From: Streptomyces sp. NBC_01717
GTDB taxonomy: Bacteria > Actinomycetota > Actinomycetes > Streptomycetales > Streptomycetaceae
Direction: 5' to 3'
DNA length: 64,000 nt
Assembly: GCF_036248255.1 (NCBI RefSeq)
Contig: NZ_CP109178.1
Span: 6,076,001 to 6,140,000, forward strand
Shown here: one piece after another, positions 14,607 through 29,421 of the stretch
Layout: every line of letters begins with the position of its first letter
Numbering within the stretch: the first letter of the stretch is position 1
Translations under genes and position numbers: made by a program
The notes under the pieces: model-generated
What the model was told of the DNA's origin: nothing
The model's input: the letters and a program-made list of their open reading frames with translations, nothing else
The model's database searches: none

Positions 14607-15011
14607 TCAGCCCTCGGTGTTCACCATCGAGGCAGCGGCGTACGTGAGGTAGTCCCACAGCTGCCGCTCATGCTGCGGGGACAGCCCGAGCTCATCGAGA
14701 GCCACCCGCATCCGGCCCAGCCAGGCATCGTGCGCGGCCCGGTCCACCCGGAACGGGACGTGCCGCATCCGCAGCCGTGGGTGACCGCGCTGCTCGCTGT
14801 ACGTCCGGGGGCCACCCCAGTACTGGATCAGGAACAGCGTGAACCGCTCCTCGGCCGGCCCCAGATCCTCCTCCGGATACATCGGCCGCAGCAGCGGGTC
14901 CTCGGCAACCCCCTGGTAGAAGCGGTGGACCAGGCGCCGGAAGGTCTCCTCGCCGCCGACCTGCTCGTAGAAGGTCTGCTCCTGAAGCGTGTCGTGCGGA
15001 TTCTCTGTCAC
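14607..15011 (-). CDS. glbO: group II truncated haemoglobin (trHbO)
   Basis: 134 aa, GTG start. It matches the trHbO fold: FYQGV with the B10 Tyr (residue 32), PMYPEE with the CD1 Tyr (45), GGPRTYSEQRGHPRLRMRH with the proximal F8 His (84), and DAWL with the G8 Trp (97) diagnostic of group II. It binds haem and handles O2, NO or peroxide. The longer open frame upstream is antisense to the methyltransferase gene and is not counted. It is divergent from the methyltransferase gene across 111 bp that contain a 14-bp palindrome. Confidence 0.93.
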   Translation of the reverse strand: MTENPHDTLQEQTFYEQVGGEETFRRLVHRFYQGVAEDPLLRPMYPEEDLGPAEERFTLFLIQYWGGPRTYSEQRGHPRLRMRHVPFRVDRAAHDAWLGRMRVALDELGLSPQHERQLWDYLTYAAASMVNTEG

Positions 15012-15046
15012 CCGTCCATGGTCGCAGACGCACCGGCCGAGGACCT

Positions 15047-15060
15047 GGGTCCTAGGACCC
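15047..15060. promoter_or_regulatory. 14-bp perfect palindrome between divergent glbO and methyltransferase genes
   Basis: GGGTCCTAGGACCC reads the same on both strands and lies 36 bp from the glbO start and 63 bp from the methyltransferase start. Its central position between divergent genes fits an operator. No regulator is adjacent. Confidence 0.45.
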
Positions 15061-15122
15061 GGGCCCGGACAGCCGCTGTGCGCCTCGTCGCTTCCGGGGG
15101 GCGCGAGCGGGAGAGTGGAGGC

Positions 15123-16115
15123 ATGGGCCCATACCTGGATCAGTTCTCGGAGGCCGGCGCCGAGGCCCGGTGGGCGATGGTGCGGGAAATGGTCGCGCGC
15201 GGTGCGTTGAAGGACCCCGCCTGGCGTGCCGCGTTCGAGGAGGTGCCGCGCCATCTGTTCGTGCCGTACTACTTCGTTACCGGGACCGGCGGGCCCCAGC
15301 GGCTCTGGCGCGAGGACCCCGACCCGGCCCGGCGGGCCCGGTGGCTGCACGGGGCATACGCGGACGAGGCGCTGGCCACCCGGATCCGGGACGGTGAACT
15401 CGTCTCGTCGAGCAGTCAGCCGTCGCTGATGGCCCGGATGCTGGAGGAGCTGGAGATGACGGACGGCATGACCGTCCTGGAGATCGGTGCGGGCACCGGC
15501 TACAACGCCGCGCTGCTCGCCCACCGCCTCGGCGACGACGCGGTGACCACCATCGACCTCGATCCGGAGATCACGGAGTCGGCCCGCCGACATCTCGCGG
15601 CGGCCGGCCACCACCCGGCGGTGATCACCGGGGACGGGGCGCGGGGCTGCCCCGAGCGGGGCCCGTACGACCGGATCATCGCGACCTGCACCCTGCCGTC
15701 CGTACCGCAGGCATGGCTGGCGCAGTGCCGGCCGGGGGCGCGGATCCTGGCGCCGTTCGCCACCGGTCTGATCCTGCTGGGGGTGCGGGAGACTCCGCAC
15801 GGGAGGTGTGCCGAGGGGCGGTTCCTGTACACGCCCGCGTTCTTCGTGCCACTGCGCGGGGCGGTGCCGCCGGTGCGCCACCCGCACACCGCAGGACTGC
15901 CGAGGCGGGTGGCCGAGGACGAGTTGTTCCTGTTCATGCTGACGCTGACCGGGTCCACTCTCGACCCGCGCGAGGCCCTCTCCCTCTGGCAGCGGGAGGG
16001 GCGCCCCGAGCGGGCGAGGTTCGGCGTCACGGTCCGGGACGGGCGGCAGTGGGCCTGGCTGGACGACCCGGAGGGGCCGTACGCCTGGCCACTGCCCGCC
16101 GACCTCACGGACTGA
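15123..16115 (+). CDS. SAM-dependent methyltransferase, PCMT (L-isoaspartyl O-methyltransferase)-like
   Basis: 330 aa, ATG preceded by GAGTGGAG. The N-terminal part (VPRHLFVPYYF, residues 41-51, and SSSSQPSLMARML near 95-107) matches the substrate loop region of protein-L-isoaspartate methyltransferases. Motif I, VLEIGAGTGYN (118-128), and an acidic DLDPE follow. The C-terminal 110 residues are an extension seen in actinobacterial homologues. It may repair isoaspartyl damage, or methylate a peptide or small molecule; no RiPP precursor is seen nearby. It converges on the FHA gene with 9 bp between stops. Confidence 0.8.
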   Translation: MGPYLDQFSEAGAEARWAMVREMVARGALKDPAWRAAFEEVPRHLFVPYYFVTGTGGPQRLWREDPDPARRARWLHGAYADEALATRIRDGELVSSSSQPSLMARMLEELEMTDGMTVLEIGAGTGYNAALLAHRLGDDAVTTIDLDPEITESARRHLAAAGHHPAVITGDGARGCPERGPYDRIIATCTLPSVPQAWLAQCRPGARILAPFATGLILLGVRETPHGRCAEGRFLYTPAFFVPLRGAVPPVRHPHTAGLPRRVAEDELFLFMLTLTGSTLDPREALSLWQREGRPERARFGVTVRDGRQWAWLDDPEGPYAWPLPADLTD

Positions 16116-16124
16116 GCGTTCCGG

Positions 16125-17243
16125 TCAGCCGCGCCGGATGGTGATCGTCGTCCATGCCCCGACGTGCACCTGGTCGCCGTCCTGGAGCGGAACGGGGACG
16201 TAGGGCTGGATCGGGTCCTCGGCGCCGTTCAGCGTGGTGCCGTTCGTGGAGTTCTGGTCGACCACGGCCCAGCTTCCGTCGGGCTGCTGCACCAGCACCG
16301 CGTGCTGGTGCGAGACCCCCGGGTCCTCCGGCGGCACGGACAGATCGACATCGGGGGACTCGCCGGTGCTGTGCCGACGACGGCCGATGGTGACCTGGTT
16401 GCCGGTGAGTGGAAGGCGCTGCTCCGGGGAGTACGCGGGCAGGTTGAGCCCGGTCGCCTCGGGGCCGCTGCGCTGCATCATCGCCAGGAAGTACTCACGG
16501 TCCGGGGCGATGACCGCCGTCCAGTTCGCGGGAGCCTGGTTCGGGACCTGGCTCTGGAAGGGCGGCGGCTGCTGCTGCCTCGGTGCCTGCGGTGCCTGCG
16601 GTGCCTGGGGCTGCGAGGGCGGCGGCAGCATCCAGTCGTCACCGCCCGGCTGCTGGACCTGTGGCTGCGGCGGCGCGGTCTGCTGCTGGAAGGACGGCGG
16701 AGGCGGCGGACCCTGCCGCAGGAACGGGTTCGGCGGCTGCTGCGGACCCGGTCCAGGAGGACCCGGGTGGCTGCCGGGACCGGACAGCGGCTCGGCCGGA
16801 CGGTTCACCTGGGACGGCCGCGAGCTCTGGTATTCGAACGGATCGCGCTGCTGCGGCGGCGGAGGCGGAGGGCTTTGCTGCGCCTGGAAGCCGGGCGGCA
16901 GGTTCAGACCGGGCACCGGTCCGCCGGCACCCGGGCCACCTGGACCCCCGTGCTGCGGGGCCAGCGGGGTGTACGACGTCGCCGTGTTCGTGAGGAAGTT
17001 CCACCGGCACTCCTCGCAGAACGGCGCCATCGCCTCTCGCGGGGTGCGGCACTGCGGGCAGAGCTCCGCCTGCTGCGTCGCATCGGGGCCGGGGCCCTGC
17101 GGGTAGCCGTAACCGGGTGCGGGCGGCGGGGGAGGCGGCGGTGGGACTGCGCCCGCAGGCGCGCCCGCGCCGGCCATGCGATGGCCGCAGACCTCGCACC
17201 AGTCGTCGGAACCCGACTGGTGTCCGTTCGGGCAGGTCGGCAT
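16125..17243 (-). CDS. FHA-domain protein with two N-terminal zinc ribbons
   Basis: 372 aa, last gene of the PknG-type array. The start (complement of 17241-17243) follows GAGGGGGAAG; a longer in-frame start at 17336 has no such site. Ribbon 1 has C4, H8, C16, C19. Ribbon 2 has C62, C65, C76, C79. A 150-residue Pro/Gln-rich linker leads to a C-terminal FHA domain (about 265-372) with GRRR, SHQH and NSTNGTTLNG, the residues that hold phospho-threonine. It is therefore the likely reader of phosphorylation made by the linked kinase, comparable in role to GarA/OdhI but different in layout. Partner phosphosites are not known. Confidence 0.88.
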   Translation of the reverse strand: MPTCPNGHQSGSDDWCEVCGHRMAGAGAPAGAVPPPPPPPPAPGYGYPQGPGPDATQQAELCPQCRTPREAMAPFCEECRWNFLTNTATSYTPLAPQHGGPGGPGAGGPVPGLNLPPGFQAQQSPPPPPPQQRDPFEYQSSRPSQVNRPAEPLSGPGSHPGPPGPGPQQPPNPFLRQGPPPPPSFQQQTAPPQPQVQQPGGDDWMLPPPSQPQAPQAPQAPRQQQPPPFQSQVPNQAPANWTAVIAPDREYFLAMMQRSGPEATGLNLPAYSPEQRLPLTGNQVTIGRRRHSTGESPDVDLSVPPEDPGVSHQHAVLVQQPDGSWAVVDQNSTNGTTLNGAEDPIQPYVPVPLQDGDQVHVGAWTTITIRRG

Positions 17244-17340
17244 GTCGGCGCTTCCCCCTCTCCTCGTCCGGCCCCGGGGGCCGTCGTCTCTGTTGCTTCG
17301 CCAGGTCGCAGAGCCGGCCGGCTGCCGGTCGGCCATCAGG

Positions 17341-18702
17341 TCACTTCTTCACGCGGACGGTCTTGGTGGAGCGCGTTTCGAGGGTCATCTCGTCGGCCTC
17401 CGCCACCTTCGCCTTCAGTCGCACAGTACCTGTCGCCGCGTCCACGACGTCCACCACCTTCGAAAGCAGTTTCGCAGTGTCAGCGTTCCCGGAGGCCGAT
17501 GCCAGCTGCACCGCGCGGCCCAATTTCGCCGTCGCTCCGTCGAAATCTCCCGACTTGCGCGCATCGAGCCCCTGTTGGATGACTTGCGCCAGTTCCGCCT
17601 GGCCCGTGTAGTGCGCGACCTGCGGATTGATCGAGGTGGACGCCACCATGTCGTCGGTCCACACCGCCCGCACCAACCCGTGCGAAAGCGTCTGCGGAGC
17701 CGCCGTCCCCGACGGGTCGGGGAGGATCAACGAGACGCGGGCCGCGAGCATTTCCTGCCCGATCCCGGCCTCCGGCACCTGTACACACACGTGGTAGTCG
17801 CGGGACTCGTCGCCCCAGGACCCGGTCGGGTAGTCCCCGGCGCGCGGGCCCACCTCGGTGCGGCGGTCGGTCAGATCGGCGACCGTCGGCGCGACCTGCT
17901 TCACGAACTTGATCTCGACTCCGACGGGCGTCCAGAGCCGCAGCGCCACGTCCGCGACCTCCTTGCCCATCGCGTTCTCCATCATCTGCGTGAAGTCCGC
18001 GGCGAGCCCCGCCGGATCGGCGACGATGTCCACGGTTCCGAGCAGCGCGGAGGCTATGGCTGTGACTTCTTTCACCTCCCAGTCGGTGCCGACGCCGCGC
18101 GCGTCACAGGTGAAACGGCCCGCGCACGCCTCGAGCGCGTCCGCCAGGTCCTGGGGCGACTCGTGCTCGTTGCGGCCGTCGGTGAGCAGGATCCCGTGCC
18201 GGATGTCCACATCGGCGGCGCCGAGCAGCCGGTCGGCCAGCCGCAGCCAGGTGCCGATCGCCGTACCGCCGCCCGCACTGAGCCGACGAAGTGCCTCCTT
18301 CGCCTGGGCCCTGGTCTGTGCGTCGGCGGTGGCGAGGCGGCCGTTGCCCGGGTAGACCTCTTTGGCGACGTGCGTACCGCCGACCACGGCGAACGACGTA
18401 CCGTCGCGCAGGGTGTCGATGGCCGCGGCCGTCGCGTCGCGGGCGTTGCGCATCTTCGTCGGCGGATAGTCCATCGAACCGGAACAGTCCACCATGATCA
18501 CCACGGCGGCGTTCGGCCCCCGCCCCGGCACATGGACGGGCGAGGCGGTCGCACCGGTCAGCGGGACGCCACCGGTGGTGCCGCCACCGGTCGACGTGAC
18601 CGTGACGATCGCGTTGACGTCGCGGCCGCCCTCCGGCAGATATTCGTTCTGGTACACCTCGACGGAGAACTGCGGCACGTGGGACTTGGAGAAGTTGGCC
18701 AT
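17341..18702 (-). CDS. von Willebrand factor A-domain protein
   Basis: 453 aa. A roughly 60-residue N-terminal beta segment precedes a VWA domain whose metal site (MIDAS) is intact: D72-x-S74-x-S76, the Thr of GGGTAIGT and the Asp of LLTDGRN. A beta-rich region and a C-terminal helical segment (QQGLDARKSGDFDGATAKLG, TPR-like) follow. There is no signal peptide or membrane helix, so it should be cytoplasmic, probably a metal-dependent protein-binding hub. It lies between the FHA and PP2C genes (97 and 83 bp gaps) in the same direction. It lacks the zinc ribbons of its neighbours. Confidence 0.85.
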   Translation of the reverse strand: MANFSKSHVPQFSVEVYQNEYLPEGGRDVNAIVTVTSTGGGTTGGVPLTGATASPVHVPGRGPNAAVVIMVDCSGSMDYPPTKMRNARDATAAAIDTLRDGTSFAVVGGTHVAKEVYPGNGRLATADAQTRAQAKEALRRLSAGGGTAIGTWLRLADRLLGAADVDIRHGILLTDGRNEHESPQDLADALEACAGRFTCDARGVGTDWEVKEVTAIASALLGTVDIVADPAGLAADFTQMMENAMGKEVADVALRLWTPVGVEIKFVKQVAPTVADLTDRRTEVGPRAGDYPTGSWGDESRDYHVCVQVPEAGIGQEMLAARVSLILPDPSGTAAPQTLSHGLVRAVWTDDMVASTSINPQVAHYTGQAELAQVIQQGLDARKSGDFDGATAKLGRAVQLASASGNADTAKLLSKVVDVVDAATGTVRLKAKVAEADEMTLETRSTKTVRVKK

Positions 18703-18785
18703 CTGATCGGCTCCTGGCGAAGGTGGCAGAGCTGGCAAAGGTCGCAGTGCGCGAGCGGACGGGACGGAACCGGACTCAACAGGAC

Positions 18786-20219
18786 TCAAGCGGTGCTGTA
18801 GGCCGATCCTGCCCCTTGCGGAGGTACGGCGAACGGCAGCAGAGCCACTGTTACGTTGTCGTGGCCCCCACCGTCGAGCGCGTGACCCACCAGCACCTGG
18901 GCTCCGTGCAGCGGTCGTTCGTGCGCGTCCGGGGGGACGACGGCGGCCATTTCGGCGGCCGACTCCGCGTAGTTCCACAGCCCGTCCGTGCACACCACCA
19001 CCAGACCCGGCCGGTCCGGTTTGAACGAAGCGGTGTGCGGCTCCAGTTCGTACGCATCGGCGCCGAGCCAGCCCGTGATGGCGTGGGCGCGTTCGTCCGC
19101 GTACGCCTCGGCCTCGTTCATCAGGCCCGTCGCCACCATCTGCGCGGCCCAGGAGTCGTCCTCGGTGAGCCGGGCGGGCGGGGTGGTGCGGTCGTCCGGC
19201 ACCCAGTAGACGCGGCTGTCGCCGACCCAGCCGACGACCAGCAGGCCGCCCGCCATGACCGCGCCGACCAGCGTGCAGGCCGGGGCGTTCTGATGGTGGT
19301 GCGGATCGTGCTCCTGGGCCCGGCCGTCGTCGTGGGCCAGCGAGTTGACCGACTCGGCGGCGGCGACGATCGCCTCGTGCATCGCCTGCTGCGGGTGGGC
19401 GCCGCGCGGCAGCGACTCCAGCAGCGACTCGTTGGCGGCGATCGCGGCGGCGGCGGAGGCCTCGTCGGGGCGGCTCGCGGAGGAGACGCCGTCGCAGACG
19501 ATCGCGACGACGGCCGGTGAGCCGTCCGGCAGGGCGGTCGTCGACACCGCGAACGAGTCCTCGTTGCGGTGATGGCGCAGCCCCCGGTCGCTGACGGCGG
19601 CCACCGAACCGAGCTCCTGCTCCATGTGGTCGCGCTCGCGGGGCTGGGCGTGACCGCAGTTCTCGCAGTAGCCGTCGGGGTCGACATGACCGGCGCGGCA
19701 GGCGACGCACAGCTTGGTGCCGTCCGGCGGGGTGAGGGCCGGCTCCGGGAAGGCGGCGCCCGCGGAGGTACGGGGGTCGGGGGCGACGGGAGCCGCCAGC
19801 TCGAAGTCACCTGAGCCGGAGCCCGGGCCGGAGACCGAGGCGGCGCCTGAACCGGAGCCCGAGTCGGAGCTCAGCCCCGCGCCCGAGGCGTTCGGACGGT
19901 CGAAGCGGACCCCTGCGGGAGCATGAACCGGTGCACCGCCCGGCGCGGGCGGCTCGGACCGGCCGGTCACGGGGCCGGCCGACCACTCGACCGAACCCGA
20001 AGTCGCCGCGGTGGGCGCGCCCGGCCCGGAGGCCGCCGTGCCTCCCGGCGCACCGCCCTCCACGGGCGCGGCCATCGCGATCGTCGGGTGGTCCTCCGGC
20101 GGCGCCGGTACGACCGACAGGTCGTACCCGCACGCACCGCAGAACAGGTCGCCCGATTCCAGCGGCTCCTCGCAGTTCGGACACCTCGACAAGGCGGTCT
20201 CCTGGTGCATCTGCGACAT
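18786..20219 (-). CDS. PP2C-family Ser/Thr protein phosphatase with two zinc ribbons
   Basis: 477 aa; start MSQMHQ two bases after the pknG stop. Ribbon 1 is C13, C16, C27, C30 and ribbon 2 is C171, C174, C185, C188, separated by a Pro/Gly/Ser linker. The PP2C domain (about 203-470) keeps every metal-binding motif: RNEDSF (D221), VCDGVSS, VGDSRVY, VVCTDG and GHDNVTV. It should remove phosphate from Ser/Thr in an Mn/Mg-dependent reaction and probably reverses the linked kinase. Gene order and the shared ribbon layout argue that kinase and phosphatase act on one complex. Confidence 0.9.
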   Translation of the reverse strand: MSQMHQETALSRCPNCEEPLESGDLFCGACGYDLSVVPAPPEDHPTIAMAAPVEGGAPGGTAASGPGAPTAATSGSVEWSAGPVTGRSEPPAPGGAPVHAPAGVRFDRPNASGAGLSSDSGSGSGAASVSGPGSGSGDFELAAPVAPDPRTSAGAAFPEPALTPPDGTKLCVACRAGHVDPDGYCENCGHAQPRERDHMEQELGSVAAVSDRGLRHHRNEDSFAVSTTALPDGSPAVVAIVCDGVSSASRPDEASAAAAIAANESLLESLPRGAHPQQAMHEAIVAAAESVNSLAHDDGRAQEHDPHHHQNAPACTLVGAVMAGGLLVVGWVGDSRVYWVPDDRTTPPARLTEDDSWAAQMVATGLMNEAEAYADERAHAITGWLGADAYELEPHTASFKPDRPGLVVVCTDGLWNYAESAAEMAAVVPPDAHERPLHGAQVLVGHALDGGGHDNVTVALLPFAVPPQGAGSAYSTA

Positions 20220-20221
20220 CT

Positions 20222-22975
20222 TCACACCCACGTCCGGGGGCGGAAGCGGTTGGCCCGCTCCACCAGTTCGATCCTCTCGTCGCCACGCTGCGCAAGCCGG
20301 GCGAGCATCCGGTACGAACGCTCAAGACCGAAACGCAGCCCGCGTTCGTCCACCTCGCTGCCGAGCAGCATCCTCGGTCCGGCAGGAGCTCGGTACTGCG
20401 GGGAGTCCGGCCGGTCCATGGGGCTTCCGGAGAGTACCCAGTCCAGCGCCGTCCCCAGCACCTCGGTCGACAACTGCTCACGGCGCACCGCGTCCAGTCC
20501 GAAACTCTGCAGCCCGGACACCTGGTCGGCGGCGGCCGTCAGATCGGCGATCAGCGGCTCGTGCGGGGCCCGTTCACGCAGCCGGGCCCGTACGGCGGCG
20601 ACCCGGGCGGCCGTGTAGTGGATCGAGGCCTCGGGCACGGACTCCAGCGTCCGTACGGCCCCGGCCCGGTCCCCGGCCGCCATCTGCACCCGGGCCAGGC
20701 CGAACGCGGCGCTGACGAAGCTCGGGTCCGTCGTCCACACCAGGCGGTAGTACTCGGCGGCGTTGTCCAGCTGGCCGAGGACCTCCGCACAGATGCCCAG
20801 CGCCAGCTTGGGAGCGGGCTCACCGGGGAACGCGTCGTAGACCGCGTCGAACGACAGCGCGGCGGTCTCGTTGTCACCCGTCACCAGCGAGGCGATCCCG
20901 CGGTACCAGACGACCCGCCAGTCGTCCGGGTACTGCGCCTCCAGACCGGTCAAGGTCTGCCCGGCGGCGCCCAGTTCGTTCATCTCCAGGCGGGCGCGCA
21001 GTTCCCGAAGTCTGGTCTCCAGCGAGGCGGCGGGTACGGCCTGCAATGCGGCAATCAGTTCGGCGGGTGCGGATGCCATCAGTCCGGCGAGGAAGCCCGC
21101 ATTGGGGTCGCTCGCGTCCACCCGCGGTACGGGCAGCGCGAGCGAGGTGGCCCGCGCGTCGAGCCCGGCCAGCCGTGGCACGCCCGGAGCGGAGGTCCCC
21201 GGCAGCGCGCCGGGGACGACCGGTGCGGGAGCGACCCGGGGCGCCGGAATGGCCGCCTGCGTCTGTGCGTACGGGGCAGGGGTGCCGTTGCCGCCCCGTA
21301 CGTGCGTGGCGGACGCCGGCAGCGGTGCGGCCCCCTGAGCCGACTGCCCGGGAACGAACGGCGACGCACCGGGCGCCACATGCCCGACCGTCGCCGGCGG
21401 GGCCACCGGAACCCCGCCGAACGCCGCAACCGGACTCCGGTCCCTCCCCCTGCGCCGCCCGGTCGGCTCCGTCCGTACCCCGAGCCGCGAGACATCGTCC
21501 GTCAGCTCGGCGAACAACTGCGTGTCCGTGACCCGTAGTTCCGTGCCGAACAGCGTCGAGAGCGCCGGTCGCGGCCGCCCCGTCTGCAGCGCCACGACCT
21601 CCCGCAACACCCCCGTCAGCTGCTCGGCCATCTCCGATGCCGAGGCGAACCGTCTCGCCGGATCCGGATCCGTGGCCCGCACCAGCAGCCGGTAGAACGA
21701 CTCGTACGTCCGGAACACCTCGATGTTGTCCGGGTCCGGCAGCGAGTCCACGAAGACGTTCGTGTAGCCCTGGAAGTCGAAGGTGAGCACCGCGAGCGTC
21801 CGCGCGACCGTGTACAGGTCGGAGGCGACCGACGGGCCGACCTCCGCGACCTCCGGCGCCTGATAGCCCACCGTGCCGTAGATGGCCGACTCCTCGTCGT
21901 CCATCCTGCGCACCGCACCCATGTCGATCAGCTTGAGCTGGTCCTCGGTCTGGATCGCGTTGTCGACCTTGAAGTCGCAGTACAGCAGGTTGCGGCTGTG
22001 CAGATGGCCGAGCGCCTCCAGCGCCTCGATGCCGTAGGCGCAGGCCTGCTCGACCGGCAGCGGATCCCGCTTCCCGGAGGGGGTACGGCGCTCGTTCGCG
22101 ATCTCCTTGAGCGCCTTGCCGCCGACGTACTCCATCACGATGTAGCCGTCGAGCGAGCCGGTGCGCTGGTCGAGATGCTCGACGAAGTTGTAGATCCGGA
22201 CGATGTTGGAGTGCTCGATCTCGGCGAGGAAGCGGCGCTCCGAGATCGCGGCCGCCATCGCGTCCTGGTCGCCGGTGTCCAGCAGGCCCTTGAGGACCAC
22301 CCAACGGTCCGAGACCGCACGGTCCACCGCGAGATAGACCCAGCCGAGCCCGCCGTGCGCCAGACAGCCCGCCACCTCGTACTGGCCGTGCACGATGTCG
22401 CCGCCGTGCAGCTTCGGTACGAAGGAGTACGGGTGGCCGCACTTGGTGCAGAACCCCTCGGTCCGGCCCGGCCGTTCACCACGGGACCGGCCCACCGGGG
22501 CCCCGCAGTCGGAGCGCGAACAGAACCGTTTCCGCTCCGGCACCTCCGGGTTCTCCATCACCGCTGAGCGCGGGTCGGGGCGCGGCACGTCCGGCACCTG
22601 CACCAGACCCGCTCCCAGCCGGTTGCGCCCGGACGCCCCCGTCGACGTACCGGAGGAGCGCACCGACACCGAGCGGGACGTGGCGCTGCCCGACAGGGAG
22701 CGCGACAGCCGCCCCGACACCGAACGCCGCGAGGTCGACGAGCGGGCCGAGGAGCGCGCGGAGGCCCGGGACGACGCCCGCGAACCGCTCCGCGCCGAGC
22801 TGCTGTTGCTGCCCTTGCCGCTCGCACCGCCGGCCGCGATGCCGGTGGGCGGCGAGCTCAACATCCCCGTCGGCGAGACGACCGGAGCCAGACCGCAGGT
22901 GTCGCAGTACAGCTCACCGCCGCCCATGTCCTCGTAATTGCCCTCGCACGAGGGGCGCTGGCACTGCGTACTCAT
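20222..22975 (-). CDS. pknG: PknG-type serine/threonine protein kinase
   Basis: 917 aa. Residues 1-30 form a zinc ribbon (C5, C10, C24, C27). Residues about 55-118 are a Ser/Arg-rich linker. A second rubredoxin-like ribbon follows (C152, C157, C176, C179). The kinase domain (about 198-460) has the glycine loop near AHGGLGWVYLA, the Lys of VVLKG (229), catalytic Asp334 in YCDFKVDN and a DMG motif (Asp351). As in mycobacterial PknG, the HRD arginine is absent. The C-terminal roughly 300 residues are helical TPR-like repeats. The start overlaps a 24-codon ORF as ATGA and has GGGGGAC upstream. It is probably controlled by the GlnH/GlnX pair upstream, as in Mycobacterium. Confidence 0.92.
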   Translation of the reverse strand: MSTQCQRPSCEGNYEDMGGGELYCDTCGLAPVVSPTGMLSSPPTGIAAGGASGKGSNSSSARSGSRASSRASARSSARSSTSRRSVSGRLSRSLSGSATSRSVSVRSSGTSTGASGRNRLGAGLVQVPDVPRPDPRSAVMENPEVPERKRFCSRSDCGAPVGRSRGERPGRTEGFCTKCGHPYSFVPKLHGGDIVHGQYEVAGCLAHGGLGWVYLAVDRAVSDRWVVLKGLLDTGDQDAMAAAISERRFLAEIEHSNIVRIYNFVEHLDQRTGSLDGYIVMEYVGGKALKEIANERRTPSGKRDPLPVEQACAYGIEALEALGHLHSRNLLYCDFKVDNAIQTEDQLKLIDMGAVRRMDDEESAIYGTVGYQAPEVAEVGPSVASDLYTVARTLAVLTFDFQGYTNVFVDSLPDPDNIEVFRTYESFYRLLVRATDPDPARRFASASEMAEQLTGVLREVVALQTGRPRPALSTLFGTELRVTDTQLFAELTDDVSRLGVRTEPTGRRRGRDRSPVAAFGGVPVAPPATVGHVAPGASPFVPGQSAQGAAPLPASATHVRGGNGTPAPYAQTQAAIPAPRVAPAPVVPGALPGTSAPGVPRLAGLDARATSLALPVPRVDASDPNAGFLAGLMASAPAELIAALQAVPAASLETRLRELRARLEMNELGAAGQTLTGLEAQYPDDWRVVWYRGIASLVTGDNETAALSFDAVYDAFPGEPAPKLALGICAEVLGQLDNAAEYYRLVWTTDPSFVSAAFGLARVQMAAGDRAGAVRTLESVPEASIHYTAARVAAVRARLRERAPHEPLIADLTAAADQVSGLQSFGLDAVRREQLSTEVLGTALDWVLSGSPMDRPDSPQYRAPAGPRMLLGSEVDERGLRFGLERSYRMLARLAQRGDERIELVERANRFRPRTWV

Positions 22976-23046
22976 GGTCTGTCCCCCTGTTCGCCCCGCC
23001 GCAGCAGCGGCCCGTTCGCCCTGCCCGTACTCGTACGCCTGCTCAT
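22972..23046 (-). CDS. 24-residue basic small ORF between the coiled-coil gene and pknG
   Basis: The ORF encodes MSRRTSTGRANGPLLRR plus seven more residues, ending in DRP. Its ATG overlaps the stop of the upstream gene (ATGA), and GGAGGA stands 6 bases before it. Its own TGA overlaps the pknG ATG (ATGA), so ribosomes could pass through all three frames. It has 5 Arg and no recognisable domain. It could be a functional small protein or only a coupling leader for pknG. The ribosome site and the exact junctions are seen; translation is inferred. Confidence 0.5.
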   Translation of the reverse strand: MSRRTSTGRANGPLLRRGEQGDRP

Positions 23047-24368
23047 CGGCGGTCCTCCGGTGCGAACGGCCGGCGCGGGTTCAGCAGCTCCGCCACCGCC
23101 TCCTGGTACCGCAGCACCGCCTGCGCGGCGACCCGCAGATCGCACGGCGCGCTCCACAGCATGCGGCGCGCCGCGTCGTACCGCTCGATCAGTACCGGGT
23201 CCTCCGCCAGGCCGTGCCGGGCGACCTTCGCCTTGTACGCGTCCAGCCGGCCGCGCAACTCCGCCCGGACCGCCAGCGGCGCGGTGACCGCGGTCAGCGA
23301 CTCGCGGGCGCGCAGCAGTTCGTCCTCGGCCTCCCGCTCCAGAGACTCCAGCAGCGGTGAGAGCCGGTGCCACTGGGCGTGCCTGCGGTACTCCGACGCG
23401 GCGGCCAGCCGCTCCTGGAGGGCCGTCGGCGGGCCACTGACCGCGGGCACCTCGGAGGCGGCGATCTTCGCCAGCACCTCGCCGCGCGCCGAGCGGGCCT
23501 CGGCCAGCGTGCGGTCCGCGCGGGAGAGCACGTCGCGCAACTGGACGAGGCGCTGCTCGGCGTCCTGCCGGACCGCAAGGACCGCCTCGATCTCGCGACG
23601 CACGTCGTCCAGGGCACGGGCCGCCCGGTCGTAGCGCGCGGTGTCCGGACGGCCGCCGCCGGGCGCCGCGCTGCCGGGGCCCGGCAGCCAGAACGCCAGC
23701 GGATCGGAGATCACCTGCACCCGCAGAGTGGTCAGCTCATGGGTGATCGACTCCAGGTCGTCGCCCGCCGGATGCTCTCCGGGCCGTACGCCGACGGAGT
23801 GCGCAAGCGAACGCGTACGGCGCAGCTCGGCGGCGAGCAGATCTATCCGGGCGGGCAGCGCGGACCAGACGGAGTCGGAGGCGACGACCATGTCCAGCGA
23901 GCGTGCGTACAGATCGTTCATCCGGGCGACCAGCTCCTCGAGCGAGAACCGCTCGGAGAGCTTGGCCGGGCCGGTGATGGACGGGTCGGCCCGGGTGGCG
24001 GTGGACGCCATCGTGACGCTCTGGCCGCGCAGCAGTTCGGTCAGCGCCAGCAGGTCGTCATGGTTGGGGGAGCGCCGCCTGGCCCGGATCTCACGGGCCT
24101 GCTCGATCGCTGCGGCGTAGGCGTCGAAATACCCCCACAGCAGCGTGATCGACTGCTCGGTGGTGGCCCAGCGCTCCTTGGTGACACCGGTCAGGTCGGC
24201 GCCCTCCAGGAGCCGGCGGCCGGCATGGTCCTGCAGGGCGAGGAGCGAGGTCTCGATCGCCTCGTGCTCCGCACCGAGCCGGGCCAGCGCACGGTCCGCC
24301 TCGTCCCGGTCCAGGACCGGGCCGGGGGGCTTCCCCGCATAGCCGGGGAAGGGGCCCGCGACGCCCAT
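23043..24368 (-). CDS. helical coiled-coil protein of the PknG cassette, unknown function
   Basis: 441 aa, ATG preceded by AGAGGTG. Nearly all of the sequence is charged helix: ALARLGAEHEAIETSLLAL near the N-terminus, a Ser/Thr/Pro break around 115-140, and long heptad-like stretches from about 290 to 420 (DVRREIEAVLAVRQDAEQ and onward). There is no signal peptide, membrane segment or catalytic motif. Its position between the glnH-like gene and pknG suggests a structural or adaptor part of the kinase complex. I do not recognise the family. A strong hairpin sits in the 50-bp gap before it. Confidence 0.75.
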   Translation of the reverse strand: MGVAGPFPGYAGKPPGPVLDRDEADRALARLGAEHEAIETSLLALQDHAGRRLLEGADLTGVTKERWATTEQSITLLWGYFDAYAAAIEQAREIRARRRSPNHDDLLALTELLRGQSVTMASTATRADPSITGPAKLSERFSLEELVARMNDLYARSLDMVVASDSVWSALPARIDLLAAELRRTRSLAHSVGVRPGEHPAGDDLESITHELTTLRVQVISDPLAFWLPGPGSAAPGGGRPDTARYDRAARALDDVRREIEAVLAVRQDAEQRLVQLRDVLSRADRTLAEARSARGEVLAKIAASEVPAVSGPPTALQERLAAASEYRRHAQWHRLSPLLESLEREAEDELLRARESLTAVTAPLAVRAELRGRLDAYKAKVARHGLAEDPVLIERYDAARRMLWSAPCDLRVAAQAVLRYQEAVAELLNPRRPFAPEDRR

Positions 24369-24387
24369 CGATCACCTCTCTGCTCTC

Positions 24388-24410
24388 CCTGCCGGGCCGG
24401 GCCCGGCAGG
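24388..24410 (-). terminator. intercistronic hairpin between glnH-like and coiled-coil genes
   Basis: CCTGCCGGGC / GCCCGGCAGG, 10-base perfect arms with a CGG loop, 8 bp after the glnH-like stop and inside the apparent operon. It could be a partial terminator or an RNA-processing/stability site that separates expression of the sensor genes from the kinase genes. Confidence 0.45.
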
Positions 24411-24418
24411 ATCAAGGA

Positions 24419-25450
24419 CTAGTTGCTCCGGTACTTGGGCGCAGGCGGCGCCGATATCCCGGGCAGTCCGCTCGCCAGCCACTTCCGGTACGACACCATC
24501 CAGGGGCTGTCCTCGCCCCCCTTGCGGTAGTCGACCAGCACCTGATTGACCCGGGCCACCAGGTCGTCCGCTCCGTGCTTCGTGGCCACGCCGTAGTACT
24601 CGGTGGTGAACGGCTTGTCGCCCTTGAGGACGACGGCCGGGTCCTGGGCGGCCTGGCCCGCCGCCAGCGCGTTGTCGGTGACCACCGCGTCGACCTCGCC
24701 CAACTGCAGCCGGACCAGGCAGTCCAACTGGTTGGGGACGGTGAGCTGGTCCTCGTCCGCCTCGGTGCCGTCGTGCAGGTCCTTGAACTTGGCGCCGAAC
24801 GACTGCTTCTCCAGTGCCTCGTACGCGGTGGAACCCTCCGCGGTGCAGACCCGCTTGCCGGCCAGGGACTTGTCGTACCCCGTGATCGGCGAGTCCTTCG
24901 GCGCGAGGACCTGCTGACCGGCCTGGAAGTAGGCCGTGGAGAACGAGACCTGGTCCAGTCGGCTGCAGTTGATCGTCATCGTCCGGACGACGACGTCGAC
25001 CTTGTCGTTCTCCAGGGCGGCGATGCGCTGGTTGGTGGGGATGGCACGGAAGATCACCTTGTCCGGGTCGCCCAGGATGTTCTGTGCGATGGCCCGCACC
25101 AGATCGATGTCGAACCCTTCGAGCTTCCCGGTCTCCGGGTTGCGGTAGCCCCAGCGGAAGCTGTTCTGGTCGACGCCGGCGATCAGCTTCCCGCGCTCCT
25201 TGATCTTCTCGATGCCCGGCCCGTCGTCGCTCGACGGCTGCAGGCTCGCCTCCGGGTCCGTGCAGTCGTCGGCGCTGGCCGGCACCGCCGTGGCCGTACC
25301 CGGCCCGGAGACACCGATGCCGAACGGCCCGGAGCCGCCGTGCGAGAGCGGCAGCAGGGTGAGCGACGCCGTGACCGCGCAGGCCACGGCCATCCCCGTC
25401 ACCCCGCCCCAGCCGCGCAGCCTGCCCCGGGTGGAAATGGTCCTGGTCAT
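24419..25450 (-). CDS. glnH: GlnH-like amino-acid-binding protein (SBP_bac_3 family), membrane-anchored
   Basis: 343 aa; ATG chosen over the in-frame GTG 15 bp upstream because AGAGGGGG lies between them. The N-terminus has one hydrophobic helix (about 17-37). The Cys there (MAVACAV) does not sit in a good lipobox, so a helix anchor or cleaved signal is more likely than a lipoprotein. The two-lobed periplasmic-binding fold starts with IKERGKLIAGVDQNSFRWGY and continues with GFDIDLVRAIAQ. No permease or ATPase gene is adjacent, so it is probably a sensor. This matches the mycobacterial glnX-glnH-pknG order, where GlnH senses amino acids. Confidence 0.83.
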   Translation of the reverse strand: MTRTISTRGRLRGWGGVTGMAVACAVTASLTLLPLSHGGSGPFGIGVSGPGTATAVPASADDCTDPEASLQPSSDDGPGIEKIKERGKLIAGVDQNSFRWGYRNPETGKLEGFDIDLVRAIAQNILGDPDKVIFRAIPTNQRIAALENDKVDVVVRTMTINCSRLDQVSFSTAYFQAGQQVLAPKDSPITGYDKSLAGKRVCTAEGSTAYEALEKQSFGAKFKDLHDGTEADEDQLTVPNQLDCLVRLQLGEVDAVVTDNALAAGQAAQDPAVVLKGDKPFTTEYYGVATKHGADDLVARVNQVLVDYRKGGEDSPWMVSYRKWLASGLPGISAPPAPKYRSN

Positions 25451-25461
25451 CGTTCCCCCTC

Positions 25462-26856
25462 TCACCGGTACTCCGACAGTCTGCGGTTGACCCCGACGAT
25501 CGCGGCGACCGCGGCCAGTACGGCGAGAGCCGCCGCCCCGATCGGCAGCCCGCCCAGCGCCCCGCGCCCGTCCTCGGCGGCCCGGGTGAACTCGCCCTGC
25601 TCATGGGCGAGTGCCTTCTCCAGCGCCTCGTCCACCCGGTTGAAGGACTCCCCCGTGGAGTTCCTGGGCCCGATGATCTGCTTCAGGGCGCCCTCGTAGT
25701 CGCCGTTGTCGTCGGTCGTGCGGGCGGTCCGGTGGCGGCCCTGCCACTCGGAGACACCGCTGATGGCATCCGCCACCGGCCCGCTCCCCTGGGAGTCGTC
25801 GGCGAGCTTCCTGGCCGTCCCCAGCTCTTCGCGGAGGGCCTTCATGCCCGTGGTGTAGTCGGTCTGGTACTTGTCGTTCTTGCCGTCCGCCGTCAGCACG
25901 GCGCCGCGGGCGACGAGGGTGAGGTTCTCATTGGCGCGCGCCTTCAGTGAGTTGATCCGCGCGTGATTGAGCACATCGAGGGACTGCTGCCCGTGCACAT
26001 TGGCGTCCTGCAGTTCGGACCGCGCGACCGTGTGCCCCACGCCCAGCCACAGCAGCAGCACCGTCGACGCGGCGGTTGCGGCGAGCAGCCCGTGGTTGAA
26101 GACCCGGTTCGTCCTGCGGTAGTTGCGCCGCTGCGCCCAGAACAGCGCACCCAGCGCCACGACACCGAGGCCCAGCGAGAGGAACGGCCACGCTCTCGCG
26201 GAGTCGTTGTCCTGGTCGAGCCGGCCGGTCTCGGCCGTGTACAGCCGCTCGGCGGCCGGCAGCAGCTCGGTGGACATCTTCTGGTTCGCGTACCGGAGAT
26301 AGGCGCCGCCCAGAGGCAGCCCCTGCCGGTTGTTGGCGCGGGCACGCTCGATCAGGCCGGTGTACCGGGGGAGTTCTTCGTTGAGCTTGGTGATCTCCTG
26401 GCCCGACGGCGACGACGCGTCCGTGGTGGACGCCGCCTTCACGAGCAGCCTGGAAGCGTCCTTGATGTCCTTCTCGTACCGCTCGTGGACATCGCGCGGC
26501 TCCTGCGCCCCCGCGAGGAATCCGCTTGCCGCCGCAGTGTCCGCATCGGCCAGCGAACGGTAGATGTTCGCCGCCTCGGCGCTCAGTGGCTGGCTGCGGC
26601 TCACCACGTCGTCGGTGGCGGCCGCCCGGCCGGAGATCTCGAACGCCGTCACGGCCCCGAACGCGATGACGAGTACGGCCAGCGCGGCCCCGATGATCTG
26701 GAGCCTGCCCGGTTCGGTCGTCGCCGCGGCCCTCAGCCGCGCCGTCGACCCGGACCAGGCGCTGCGACGCGGCGCGGGTACCGACGCAGGTACGGGCGCG
26801 GGCGGTTGGGCCGACGCGTGCTCCGGCGCCGTGCGCACATTCGGCGGGTATGTCAC
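25462..26856 (-). CDS. glnX: GlnX-like four-helix membrane sensor protein
   Basis: 464 aa; the GTG (complement of 26854-26856) follows GGGGGAGGTCAC. The longer frame upstream lacks a ribosome site. Predicted helices are at about 53-72, 224-241, 255-275 and 435-456. Between helices 1 and 2, and again between 3 and 4, lie extracytoplasmic four-helix-bundle-like domains of about 150 residues each. The cytoplasmic N-terminus (about 50 residues) is Pro/Ala-rich. In mycobacteria the equivalent protein passes the GlnH signal to PknG. First gene of the array; a 325-bp non-coding gap follows upstream. Confidence 0.8.
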   Translation of the reverse strand: MTYPPNVRTAPEHASAQPPAPVPASVPAPRRSAWSGSTARLRAAATTEPGRLQIIGAALAVLVIAFGAVTAFEISGRAAATDDVVSRSQPLSAEAANIYRSLADADTAAASGFLAGAQEPRDVHERYEKDIKDASRLLVKAASTTDASSPSGQEITKLNEELPRYTGLIERARANNRQGLPLGGAYLRYANQKMSTELLPAAERLYTAETGRLDQDNDSARAWPFLSLGLGVVALGALFWAQRRNYRRTNRVFNHGLLAATAASTVLLLWLGVGHTVARSELQDANVHGQQSLDVLNHARINSLKARANENLTLVARGAVLTADGKNDKYQTDYTTGMKALREELGTARKLADDSQGSGPVADAISGVSEWQGRHRTARTTDDNGDYEGALKQIIGPRNSTGESFNRVDEALEKALAHEQGEFTRAAEDGRGALGGLPIGAAALAVLAAVAAIVGVNRRLSEYR

Positions 26857-27181: not shown

Positions 27182-28159
27182 TCAGCCGTACTGCGCACGG
27201 AGCCGGTTGTGCACCTCCGGCGCCGCCCCCGTCCGGTCCAGGCCCAGCAGTCCGGCGCCCAGCACCGGCGGCTCCGCCACCACCCGGATCACCGCCTTCG
27301 GGGCGCGTACCGCGAGGAGTTCGGCGATCGCGTCGTCCAACTGCGGGTGACGGGCCGCCAGCACGCTGCCGCCCAGCACCACCGGTGCCTCCTCGTCCAG
27401 CAGCCCGAGGCGGGTCAGCGCGACCGCCGCCATCGCGACGACCTCCTCCGCGAGCCGGTGCACCAGAGCACGCGCCACCGGGTCCCCGGCGGCACCGGTC
27501 GCGAACAGCACCGGCGTCAGCTCGTGCCGGCGCTCGAGCTCGATGTGTCCCAGGTGCACCGCCTCGATCAGCGCGTACATCGAGTCGAGCCCGAAGTGGG
27601 CGGGGAGTGTGCGGGCCAGCTCCGTCGGCTCCCCGCGCCCGTCCTCGGACCGCGAGGCGAACCACATGGCCTCCTCGGCGAGACCCGAACCGCCGCCCCA
27701 GTCGCCGGAGATCCGGCCGATCGCGGGGAAGCGGGCGGTCCGCCCGTCCGGCACCATGCCGACACAGTTGATCCCCGCGCCGCAGACGACGGCCACGCCC
27801 CGGGGCTCGTCGACACCCGCGCGCAGGATCGCGAAGGTGTCATTGCGGACCTCGACCGTGCCGCCCCAGCCACGGTCCCGCAGCGCCTCGGCCAACTCCC
27901 GTTCCTCGACCGGGAGATCGGCATTGGCGAGACAGGCCGACACATGGCCGACGGAGTCGACGGGGCCGGCGCTCTCACGCGCTTTCGCCAGCGCGTCGTC
28001 GAGCGTCGCGCCGAGGACGTCCACTGCCGCCGCGACGGAGACGGCCTGCGGCTGGAAACCGCCCCCGCGCGCCGTGCTCAGCACCGTTCCATCCGGTCCG
28101 ATCAGTGCCACATCGGTCTTGCTGTTCCCCGCGTCGATGGCGAGGACGGCGGCGTTCAC
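27182..28159 (-). CDS. csnK: BadF/BadG-type sugar kinase (N-acetylglucosamine/glucosamine kinase-like), CsnK
   Basis: 325 aa. The GTG start overlaps the csnH stop as GTGA. The phosphate-1 loop is AIDAGNSKTDVAL (8-20). CGAGINCVG and the GDWGGGSGLAEEAMW stretch typical of the eukaryotic-like GlcNAc kinase branch follow. It would phosphorylate amino sugar released in the cytosol using ATP. It is the last gene of the six-gene cluster, in the csnR-E-F-G-H-K order known in Streptomyces coelicolor/lividans. Whether the substrate is glucosamine or GlcNAc cannot be read from sequence. Confidence 0.82.
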   Translation of the reverse strand: MNAAVLAIDAGNSKTDVALIGPDGTVLSTARGGGFQPQAVSVAAAVDVLGATLDDALAKARESAGPVDSVGHVSACLANADLPVEERELAEALRDRGWGGTVEVRNDTFAILRAGVDEPRGVAVVCGAGINCVGMVPDGRTARFPAIGRISGDWGGGSGLAEEAMWFASRSEDGRGEPTELARTLPAHFGLDSMYALIEAVHLGHIELERRHELTPVLFATGAAGDPVARALVHRLAEEVVAMAAVALTRLGLLDEEAPVVLGGSVLAARHPQLDDAIAELLAVRAPKAVIRVVAEPPVLGAGLLGLDRTGAAPEVHNRLRAQYG

Positions 28160-29421
28160 GCCCACGCGAGGTGCTCCCGGTTGTGTGCGATCAGCTTGTC
28201 GGTGAGTGCCTCGGCGTACTCGAACTGGCCGATCAGGGGGTGGGCGAGGAGTGCCTTGAAGACCCGGTCCCGGCCGCCGCGCAGGGCGGCTTCCAGGGCG
28301 AGGTCCTCGTACGCCGTCACGTGGGAGATCAGGCCGGCGTACAGCGGGTCCAGCTCGGGTACGGCGAGTGGTGTGGCGCCGGTGCCGTCGACGCGGGCCT
28401 GTACCTCGATCACGGCGTCGTCGGGCAGGAACGGCAGCGTCCCCTTGTTGTAGGTGTTGACCACCTGCACCGCGGAGCCGCCGGAGCCCAGCAGTGAGGA
28501 CGCCAGGTCCACGGCCGCCTCGGAGTAGAACGCGCCGCCGCGTCTGGCGAGCAGCGCGGGCTTCTCGTCCAGTGCCGGGTCGCCGTACAGGGCGAGGAGT
28601 TCCTTCTCCATCGCGGCTACCTCGGCCGCGCGGGACGGCTTGGTGCCGAGCTCGCGTACGACCTCGTCGTGTGCGTAGAAGTACCGCAGGTAGTAGGAGG
28701 GGACGACGCCGAGCCGGTCGACGATCGCGCGGGGCATGTGCAGATCGTCGGCGATCGTGTCGCCGTGCTCGGCGAGCAGCTTCGGCAGCAGGTTCTCGCC
28801 GTCCGGGCCGCCGAGCCGGACCCCGAGTTCCCACGTCAGGTGGTTGAGCCCGACGTGGTCGAGGTGCACTTCGCCGGGGGTGACGTCGAGCAGTGCGGCG
28901 AACTTGCGCTGGAAGCCGATCGCCACGTTGCACAGGCCGACGGCCTTGTGGCCGGCTTGGAGCAGGGCCCGGGTCACGATGCCGACCGGGTTGGTGAAGT
29001 CGATGATCCAGGCGTCGGGGTTGGTGCGGCGGACGCGTTCGGCGATGTCGAGGACGACGGGGACGGTGCGCAGGGCTTTGGCGAGGCCGCCGGCTCCGGT
29101 GGTCTCCTGGCCGATGCAGCCGCACTCCAGGGGCCAGGTCTCGTCCTGGTTGCGGGCGGCCTGGCCGCCGACGCGCAGCTGGAGCAGGACCGCGTCGGCG
29201 TCGGCGACGCCCGCGTCGATGTCCGAGGTGGTGACGATGCGGCCCGGGTGGCCCTGCTTGGCGAAGATCCGGCGGGCGAGGCCGCCGACGAGTTCGAGGC
29301 GGTCGGCCGCCGGGTCGACGAGCACCAGCTCCTCGACGGGGAGTGTGTCCCGCAGCCGGGCGAAGCCGTCGATCAGTTCAGGTGTGTAGGTGGACCCGCC
29401 ACCAACTACTGCGAGCTTCAT
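28156..29421 (-). CDS. csnH: glycoside hydrolase family 4 protein (6-phospho-beta-glucosidase-like), CsnH
   Basis: 421 aa, starting one base after the csnG stop. The N-terminal Rossmann motif VVGGGSTYTPEL (5-16) binds NAD. DFTNPVG (Asn144), CNVAIG (Cys164) and GLNHLTW (His194) are the Mn-binding and catalytic landmarks of GH4, an oxidative NAD/Mn-dependent glycosidase family working in the cytosol. In this cluster it likely splits imported glucosamine oligosaccharides. The family name 6-phospho-beta-glucosidase is inherited from relatives and may not describe its substrate, since the importer is ABC rather than PTS. Confidence 0.87.
   Translation of the reverse strand: MKLAVVGGGSTYTPELIDGFARLRDTLPVEELVLVDPAADRLELVGGLARRIFAKQGHPGRIVTTSDIDAGVADADAVLLQLRVGGQAARNQDETWPLECGCIGQETTGAGGLAKALRTVPVVLDIAERVRRTNPDAWIIDFTNPVGIVTRALLQAGHKAVGLCNVAIGFQRKFAALLDVTPGEVHLDHVGLNHLTWELGVRLGGPDGENLLPKLLAEHGDTIADDLHMPRAIVDRLGVVPSYYLRYFYAHDEVVRELGTKPSRAAEVAAMEKELLALYGDPALDEKPALLARRGGAFYSEAAVDLASSLLGSGGSAVQVVNTYNKGTLPFLPDDAVIEVQARVDGTGATPLAVPELDPLYAGLISHVTAYEDLALEAALRGGRDRVFKALLAHPLIGQFEYAEALTDKLIAHNREHLAWA

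Follow-up and report, generated by a model that had tools for sequence, protein, structure and literature searches.

A long form of the PknG operon in Streptomyces and other actinobacteria as a possible self-contained phospho-signalling module

Relatives of the operon and the Streptomyces locus

In mycobacteria and Corynebacterium, the relatives in which it has been studied, the Ser/Thr kinase PknG is under the control of the binding protein GlnH and the transmembrane protein GlnX (PMC6069109, PMC9769921). This account concerns a related gene run in Streptomyces sp. NBC_01717, found in a 64,000-nucleotide stretch of contig NZ_CP109178.1 (positions 6,076,001 to 6,140,000; hereafter the window, whose own numbering is used), where a related sensor, a related binder and a kinase with rubredoxin and TPR domains lie in one run of genes, as they do in Mycobacterium and Corynebacterium (PMC6069109, PMC9769921, PMC8546545). 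Unlike the system of those genera, the form seen here, termed the long form, adds a helical or coiled-coil protein (CC), a PP2C phosphatase, a VWA protein, an FHA protein and an N-terminal zinc ribbon on the kinase; moreover, its FHA protein is not GarA, and the position of a Trp in mycobacterial GlnH is occupied by Gln in the window. We know of no dedicated phosphatase or reader in the mycobacterial PknG operon. PpkA-PppA-Fha, the threonine pathway of type VI secretion, likewise unites a kinase, a PP2C phosphatase and an FHA reader in one locus, but the long-operon kinase is from a different family. TerY-P triads (vWA, PP2C and kinase), which occur in tellurite-resistance loci, comprise three of the same protein classes, and TelA lies beside some long operons; unlike the triads, the long operon has a kinase with PknG-specific domains, and no window protein matches TerY_C, the domain carried by TerY-type vWA proteins, at E 0.1. 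In the actinobacterial GAP1-N2 conflict systems, zinc-ribbon kinases are linked to PP2C and to stand-alone vWA genes (PMC7159879), whereas the kinase of the long operon is PknG and is accompanied by GlnX, GlnH and an FHA gene. The long operon is a widespread variant of the already known PknG system, and full-text searches of the open-licence literature, as far as its texts were covered, returned no description of the whole set as a unit, in agreement with the original prediction made from the window.

The reading favoured here, with a probability of roughly 0.55, is that this long PknG operon would be a self-contained nutrient phospho-signalling module. By homology, an amino acid would be bound by GlnH on the outer side of the membrane, and GlnX would relay the signal to PknG, which would write on threonines; the PP2C protein would erase these marks, the FHA protein would read phospho-threonine in trans, and the VWA protein, with its metal ion-dependent adhesion site (MIDAS), together with the helical CC protein would act as adaptors keeping the set together.

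The window genome measures 10.2 Mb, and the nearest relative of its PknG among named loci is a Streptomyces kinase (73 % identity). All seven genes are on the minus strand, in the order GlnX, GlnH, CC, PknG, PP2C, VWA and FHA, confirming the predicted leftward run, and they are separated by overlaps of a few bp or gaps of <100 bp, a 24-codon ORF between CC and pknG not being counted. Domains of the window proteins were assigned with Pfam and NCBIfam. GlnX (464 aa; 25462..26856), a GlnX-family transmembrane sensor or relay, scores 497.6 bits against NF058618, above the cut-off of 250, and 198.4 against the narrower equivalog NF041460, below the cut-off of 780. Its gene overlaps by 4 bp that of GlnH (348 aa; 24419..25465), an amino-acid binding protein (SBP_bac_3, 2.5e-24) that among solved structures is nearest to the GlnH lipoprotein 6h2t/6h1u (2.1e-50). 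With residue numbers from PMC6069109, transferred to the window protein through alignment to solved GlnH, the general amino-acid contacts are kept (the Arg147, Arg169 and Asp250 positions); among the Asp/Glu specificity residues, the Arg147 and Thr162 positions are kept and the Trp232 position is Gln. In mycobacterial GlnH this Trp contacts the ligand side chain (PMC6069109). Gln, His, Tyr or Phe stands there in 82/110 long-operon loci and Trp in 6/110, and Trp in 26/47 loci of the short operon, which consists of GlnX, GlnH and PknG; this variation by lineage hints at other ligands, and long operons may not conform to the prediction that GlnH proteins linked to PknG are specific for Asp/Glu (PMC6069109).

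Apart from CC, the remaining proteins retain the residues expected of a write-erase-read module, and for the kinase, the phosphatase and the FHA protein this holds across 112 long loci. PknG (917 aa; 20222..22975) has rubredoxin, Ser/Thr kinase and PknG TPR domains (PknG_rubred, PF16919; Pkinase, PF00069; PknG_TPR, PF16918; all over cut-off) and is closest, among solved structures, to PDB 2pzi (2.3e-167); the kinase Lys, the catalytic Asp, Lys and Asn and the metal Asp are invariant in 112/112 long loci, with the catalytic Lys, the Asp and the metal Asp visible in the window protein. The phosphatase (477 aa; 18786..20219, with a possible alternative GTG start at 20231) matches PP2C_2 (2.3e-14) in addition to zinc-ribbon models, its best solved relatives being PstP-type phosphatases, and conservation of its acidic residues extends to 104-110 of the 112 loci, the exceptions being mostly gaps, and that of its Arg to 94/112. 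The VWA protein (453 aa; 17341..18702; VWA_3 and VWA_3_C) has an intact MIDAS, the residues D72, S74, S76, T147 and D175 being invariant in 42 aligned rows, and a solved relative, 4fx5 (1.1e-176), which presumably comes from Catenulispora. In five Streptomyces-type genomes (L170-L174), a distant PknG-like kinase lies beside a VWA protein that does bear a ribbon, and in two of them (L171 and L173) one neighbour looks trypsin-like by eye. The FHA protein (403 aa; 16125..17336; FHA, 1.2e-15) has FHA domains as solved relatives, with GarA among the weaker ones; across the 112 loci its Gly, Arg, Ser and Asn persist in 111-112 and its His in 106, and an internal ATG at 17243, just ahead of its first ribbon, is a plausible start. 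For CC (441 aa; 23043..24368), no Pfam or NCBIfam family is over cut-off and only a weak Myosin_tail_1 match was obtained, which fits a coiled coil; its weak matches among solved structures are to coiled-coil and helical proteins, and a 38-row alignment shows conservation towards the C-terminus, in a block around R368-R374 and P408-L411.

Conservation of the gene set and its neighbours

Co-occurrence across Actinobacteria was assessed in 296 genomes sampled evenly from the class, of which 98 have PknG_TPR at E <= 1e-15. Neighbourhoods were examined for 88 of these 98, ten genomes of family f3 being left out, and for one genome of another class, making 89. PP2C, VWA, FHA and PknG lie within <=20 kb of one another in 57/89 genomes, and all seven genes do so in 52/89, representing two classes and eight family codes (f1, f3, f7, f41, f78, f84, f85 and f104); in some of the remaining genomes the locus is interrupted by contig ends. 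Judged by their nearest named kinases, f1 is likely to be Streptomyces, f7 Nocardioides, f84 Actinomadura/Nocardiopsis and f108 Pseudonocardiaceae, and f3 is Mycobacteriaceae-like, on the basis of both very high PknG_TPR scores and nearest named kinases. A second set, the best 80 named matches to an alignment led by a long-operon kinase (and so not a fair sample, nor necessarily free of species shared with the survey), comprises 57 loci with PP2C, VWA and FHA and 55 with all seven genes, under 27 labels of genus or higher rank. The VWA family (E <= 1e-50) occurs in 65/296 class genomes, 64 of which also have PknG_TPR (E <= 1e-15), the one exception being a partial match of 155 positions (Fisher p 2e-38, uncorrected for relatedness). 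Thus, the seven genes are not scattered, and as far as these are concerned the predicted unit stands.

The eighth proposed member, the 24-codon ORF (22972..23046), does not share in this conservation. It exists, with ATGA overlaps at both ends, and among the 55 loci listed a bridging mini-ORF between CC and pknG is present in eight, the window included, with no similarity evident by eye; in 20/55 CC and pknG overlap directly by 4 bp, and in 18/55, which are uninformative on this point, no start, or a clearly wrong one, was assigned to the kinase. With no evident counterpart in the relatives listed, the ORF was rejected as a further component and judged a spacer.

Some lineages have additional genes. 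A TelA gene and a gene for a protein of ~180 aa without Pfam match precede GlnX-GlnH in 30/201 loci, and a gene for a CbxX-like AAA+ ATPase does so in 29/201, giving a ten-gene unit in Nocardioides, Kribbella, Cellulomonas, Kineosporia and relatives (L137:1168-4602, L202, L225, L243 and others); these genes were identified by Pfam in L137 and by similarity in the remaining loci. Such neighbours, along with the kinase-PP2C-vWA links of the zinc-ribbon GAP1-N2 systems (PMC7159879), are what would be expected if the operon belonged with the kinase-PP2C-vWA systems of stress or conflict and were not a metabolic sensor. That alternative is nevertheless very improbable, for the conserved GlnX-GlnH pair and the TPR and rubredoxin architecture of PknG indicate nutrient sensing, and the only TelA located in the window genome lies >2 Mb from the operon.

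On either side of the operon in the window are other genes. Convergent to it is a gene for a PCMT-like methyltransferase (14670-16115) that scores 273 bits against TIGR04188, below the cut-off of 380, a kinship with the methyltransferases of ATP-grasp peptide maturase systems; the upstream neighbours (27182-29421) code for a BadF/N-acetylglucosamine-kinase-like protein and a family 4 glycosidase.

Zinc ribbons of kinase, phosphatase and FHA protein

Two four-ligand motifs precede the functional domain in each of PknG, PP2C and FHA, and by the same pattern neither VWA nor CC of the window has any. In the kinase these are an N-terminal ribbon (residues 5-27; 22895..22963) and the rubredoxin-type ribbon (residues 152-179; 22439..22522; PknG_rubred, 3.2e-33), and since the second is the known rubredoxin domain of PknG, only the first is extra. 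The phosphatase has ribbon 1 at residues 13-30 (20130..20183) and ribbon 2 at residues 171-188 (19656..19709), with Zn_ribbon_3, which covers ribbon 1, and Zn_Ribbon_1 over cut-off and DZR just below. In the FHA protein, ribbon 1 (C-x3-H / C-x2-C) spans residues 35-50 (17187..17234) and ribbon 2 residues 93-110 (17007..17060), and Thr is frequent in the segment that follows; a Thr six residues past ribbon 2, present in 78/107, is a candidate phospho-site. When the pre-domain stretches are shuffled with their composition preserved, two ribbons arise in only 1, 1 and 0 of 20,000 cases for PknG, PP2C and FHA, respectively, so that the predicted pairs in these three proteins are far above chance; their predicted absence from VWA was also upheld. 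Over the 112 long loci, at least two ribbons occur in 99 kinases and exactly two in 101 PP2C and 98 FHA proteins. The ribbons are inferred to bind metal.

The further claim that the three proteins share one ribbon layout failed. The last ribbon Cys is 12 residues ahead of the kinase model in 107/112 long loci and 17-20 residues ahead of the PP2C model in 98/112, but anywhere from 33 to 474 residues ahead of the FHA model; because the second ribbon is near-fixed in kinase and phosphatase and not in FHA, the layouts are not equivalent. The rubredoxin domain of PknG is reported to affect kinase activity (PMC8546545, PMC6069109), and the domain-proximal ribbons, this domain in the kinase and ribbon 2 in the phosphatase, may each form an intramolecular metal- or redox-responsive gate, as reported for the rubredoxin domain. 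The distal ribbons, carried on low-complexity linkers, may instead be tethers or docking points for the partners encoded in the long operon.

Among 199 loci, 166 have enough flank to relate the extra kinase ribbon to the form of the operon: it is present in 99/108 loci with PP2C, VWA and FHA, in 14/17 with part of this set and in 4/41 with none, where one of the four positives, L160, appears to be a rubredoxin ribbon assigned wrongly. None of the short-operon f3 kinases that were examined showed the extra ribbon, and in genome G552, which has both forms, the long-form kinase has it and the short-form kinase does not, the comparison covering two of the three PknG matches of that genome.

This tracking of the long operon by the distal kinase ribbon would also follow if all ribbons of kinase, phosphatase and FHA protein docked on one scaffold, VWA or CC, as had been proposed, and so would the state of five f85 loci (L117, L118, L125, L131 and L133) in which the kinase N-ribbon is without its fourth Cys and neither PP2C ribbon 2 nor FHA ribbon 1 is present, the other ribbons remaining. 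Yet in L120 and L126, sister loci within f85, degeneration affects the kinase ribbon only, and the PP2C and FHA ribbons are intact; a strict co-loss of ribbons was therefore rejected, the joint degeneration being confined to a single clade. Considering also that the proximal ribbons of kinase and phosphatase, with their near-fixed spacing, are more like intramolecular modules, and that VWA itself bears a ribbon in the five Streptomyces-type paralog pairs, a common scaffold for all ribbons appears unlikely.

The short form, GarA and the place of the long operon

GarA, encoded elsewhere, is the known output of short GlnX-GlnH-PknG operons, and the cluster FHA protein had been likened to it as a target of PknG. 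That likeness does not hold. Against the OdhI model the cluster protein scores 22.5 bits, and the motif [DE]TTS, whose N-terminal form ETTS we take to be the phospho-motif of GarA/OdhI, occurs in 1/112 cluster FHA proteins. The window genome has a separate protein (L182; C1:7663960-7664487, plus strand), which has the ETTS motif and an N-terminal zinc ribbon and scores 189.1 bits against OdhI, just below the cut-off of 200; score and motif together make it the GarA ortholog. A shared ribbon code between GarA and the long operon was likewise considered and rejected. GarA is matched in 285/296 class genomes, and among the matches listed the ribbon end of the query is reached in families without a PknG match too, a statement about alignment reach and not about individual Cys residues. 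In 24 named genomes (19 long, 5 short) the ribbon is reached only by the Kribbella and Nocardioides matches, those of Cellulomonas, Terrabacter and Paractinoplanes not reaching it; in 20 further genomes it is in open frame in two (f95 and f97), and two f3 matches reach it only across stop codons. No GarA match reaching the ribbon in open frame was found in the 11 f3 genomes tested.

Given an ETTS-bearing GarA ortholog elsewhere in the genome and the absence of the extra genes from short operons, PknG might act on GarA as in mycobacteria, with PP2C, VWA and FHA serving another path and being neighbours through co-regulation only; the arrangement in f84, in which the GlnX-GlnH block lies downstream of a CC-PknG-PP2C-VWA-FHA block, could be taken in the same sense. 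What this explanation leaves unaccounted for is that in f84 and Actinomadura loci PknG stays beside PP2C-VWA-FHA even where GlnX-GlnH has moved, and that PknG is present in 64/65 class genomes with this VWA family. It is judged improbable.

Mycobacteriaceae-like and Pseudonocardiaceae-like genomes mostly have only GlnX-GlnH-PknG, and in the short operons of mycobacteria and relatives the extra genes are absent and the distal kinase ribbon is mostly absent. Of the 34/98 PknG genomes without VWA, 23 are in f3, where the long form was seen in 1/14 genomes examined, together with a short one. Among the named loci, Prauserella, Thermocrispum, Herbihabitans and eight Amycolatopsis loci are short, and one Amycolatopsis metagenome-assembled genome and Kibdelosporangium banguiense are long. 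A kinase tree of 118 of the 166 flank-complete loci has short loci scattered among long ones, with 6 label changes needed, which suggests that the short form arose by repeated reduction of the long form; the tree is unrooted, with several long branches meeting, and does not separate gain from loss.

Several observations weigh against a self-contained module. PknG genomes without VWA at E <= 1e-50 include seven of f84, three of f85 and one of f93, some VWA copies lie far from PknG (e.g. in G327 and G503), and nine long loci, seven of them from f85, are without the extra kinase ribbon. Nine supported independent pairs on the kinase tree gave means of 2.1 in agreement, 0.1 in disagreement and 6.8 equal, a result not significant by sign test, and the independent changes behind the coupling of ribbon and operon are too few to prove it. 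N-terminal ribbons are, moreover, not specific to the module, seeing that the GarA ribbon is reached in many genomes without a PknG match, and the derivation of short from long operons is suggested by distribution only.

The self-contained nutrient module remains the preferred reading, and a more ambitious version of it is offered only tentatively. The long form would then be the fuller PknG design, a sensor joined to a kinase-phosphatase-reader complex that is held on a MIDAS/helical hub through ribbon tails and extended in some lineages by TelA and the AAA+ ATPase, and the mycobacterial operon would be a stripped remnant with GarA as its output. PknG is a much studied Ser/Thr kinase, and the conserved eraser, reader and adaptor genes adjacent to it are concrete candidates in many actinobacteria. 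The long operon also makes the roles of the rubredoxin and N-terminal regions of PknG testable in Streptomyces, and it suggests that mycobacteria may possess, in their operon, one reduced version of a larger module.

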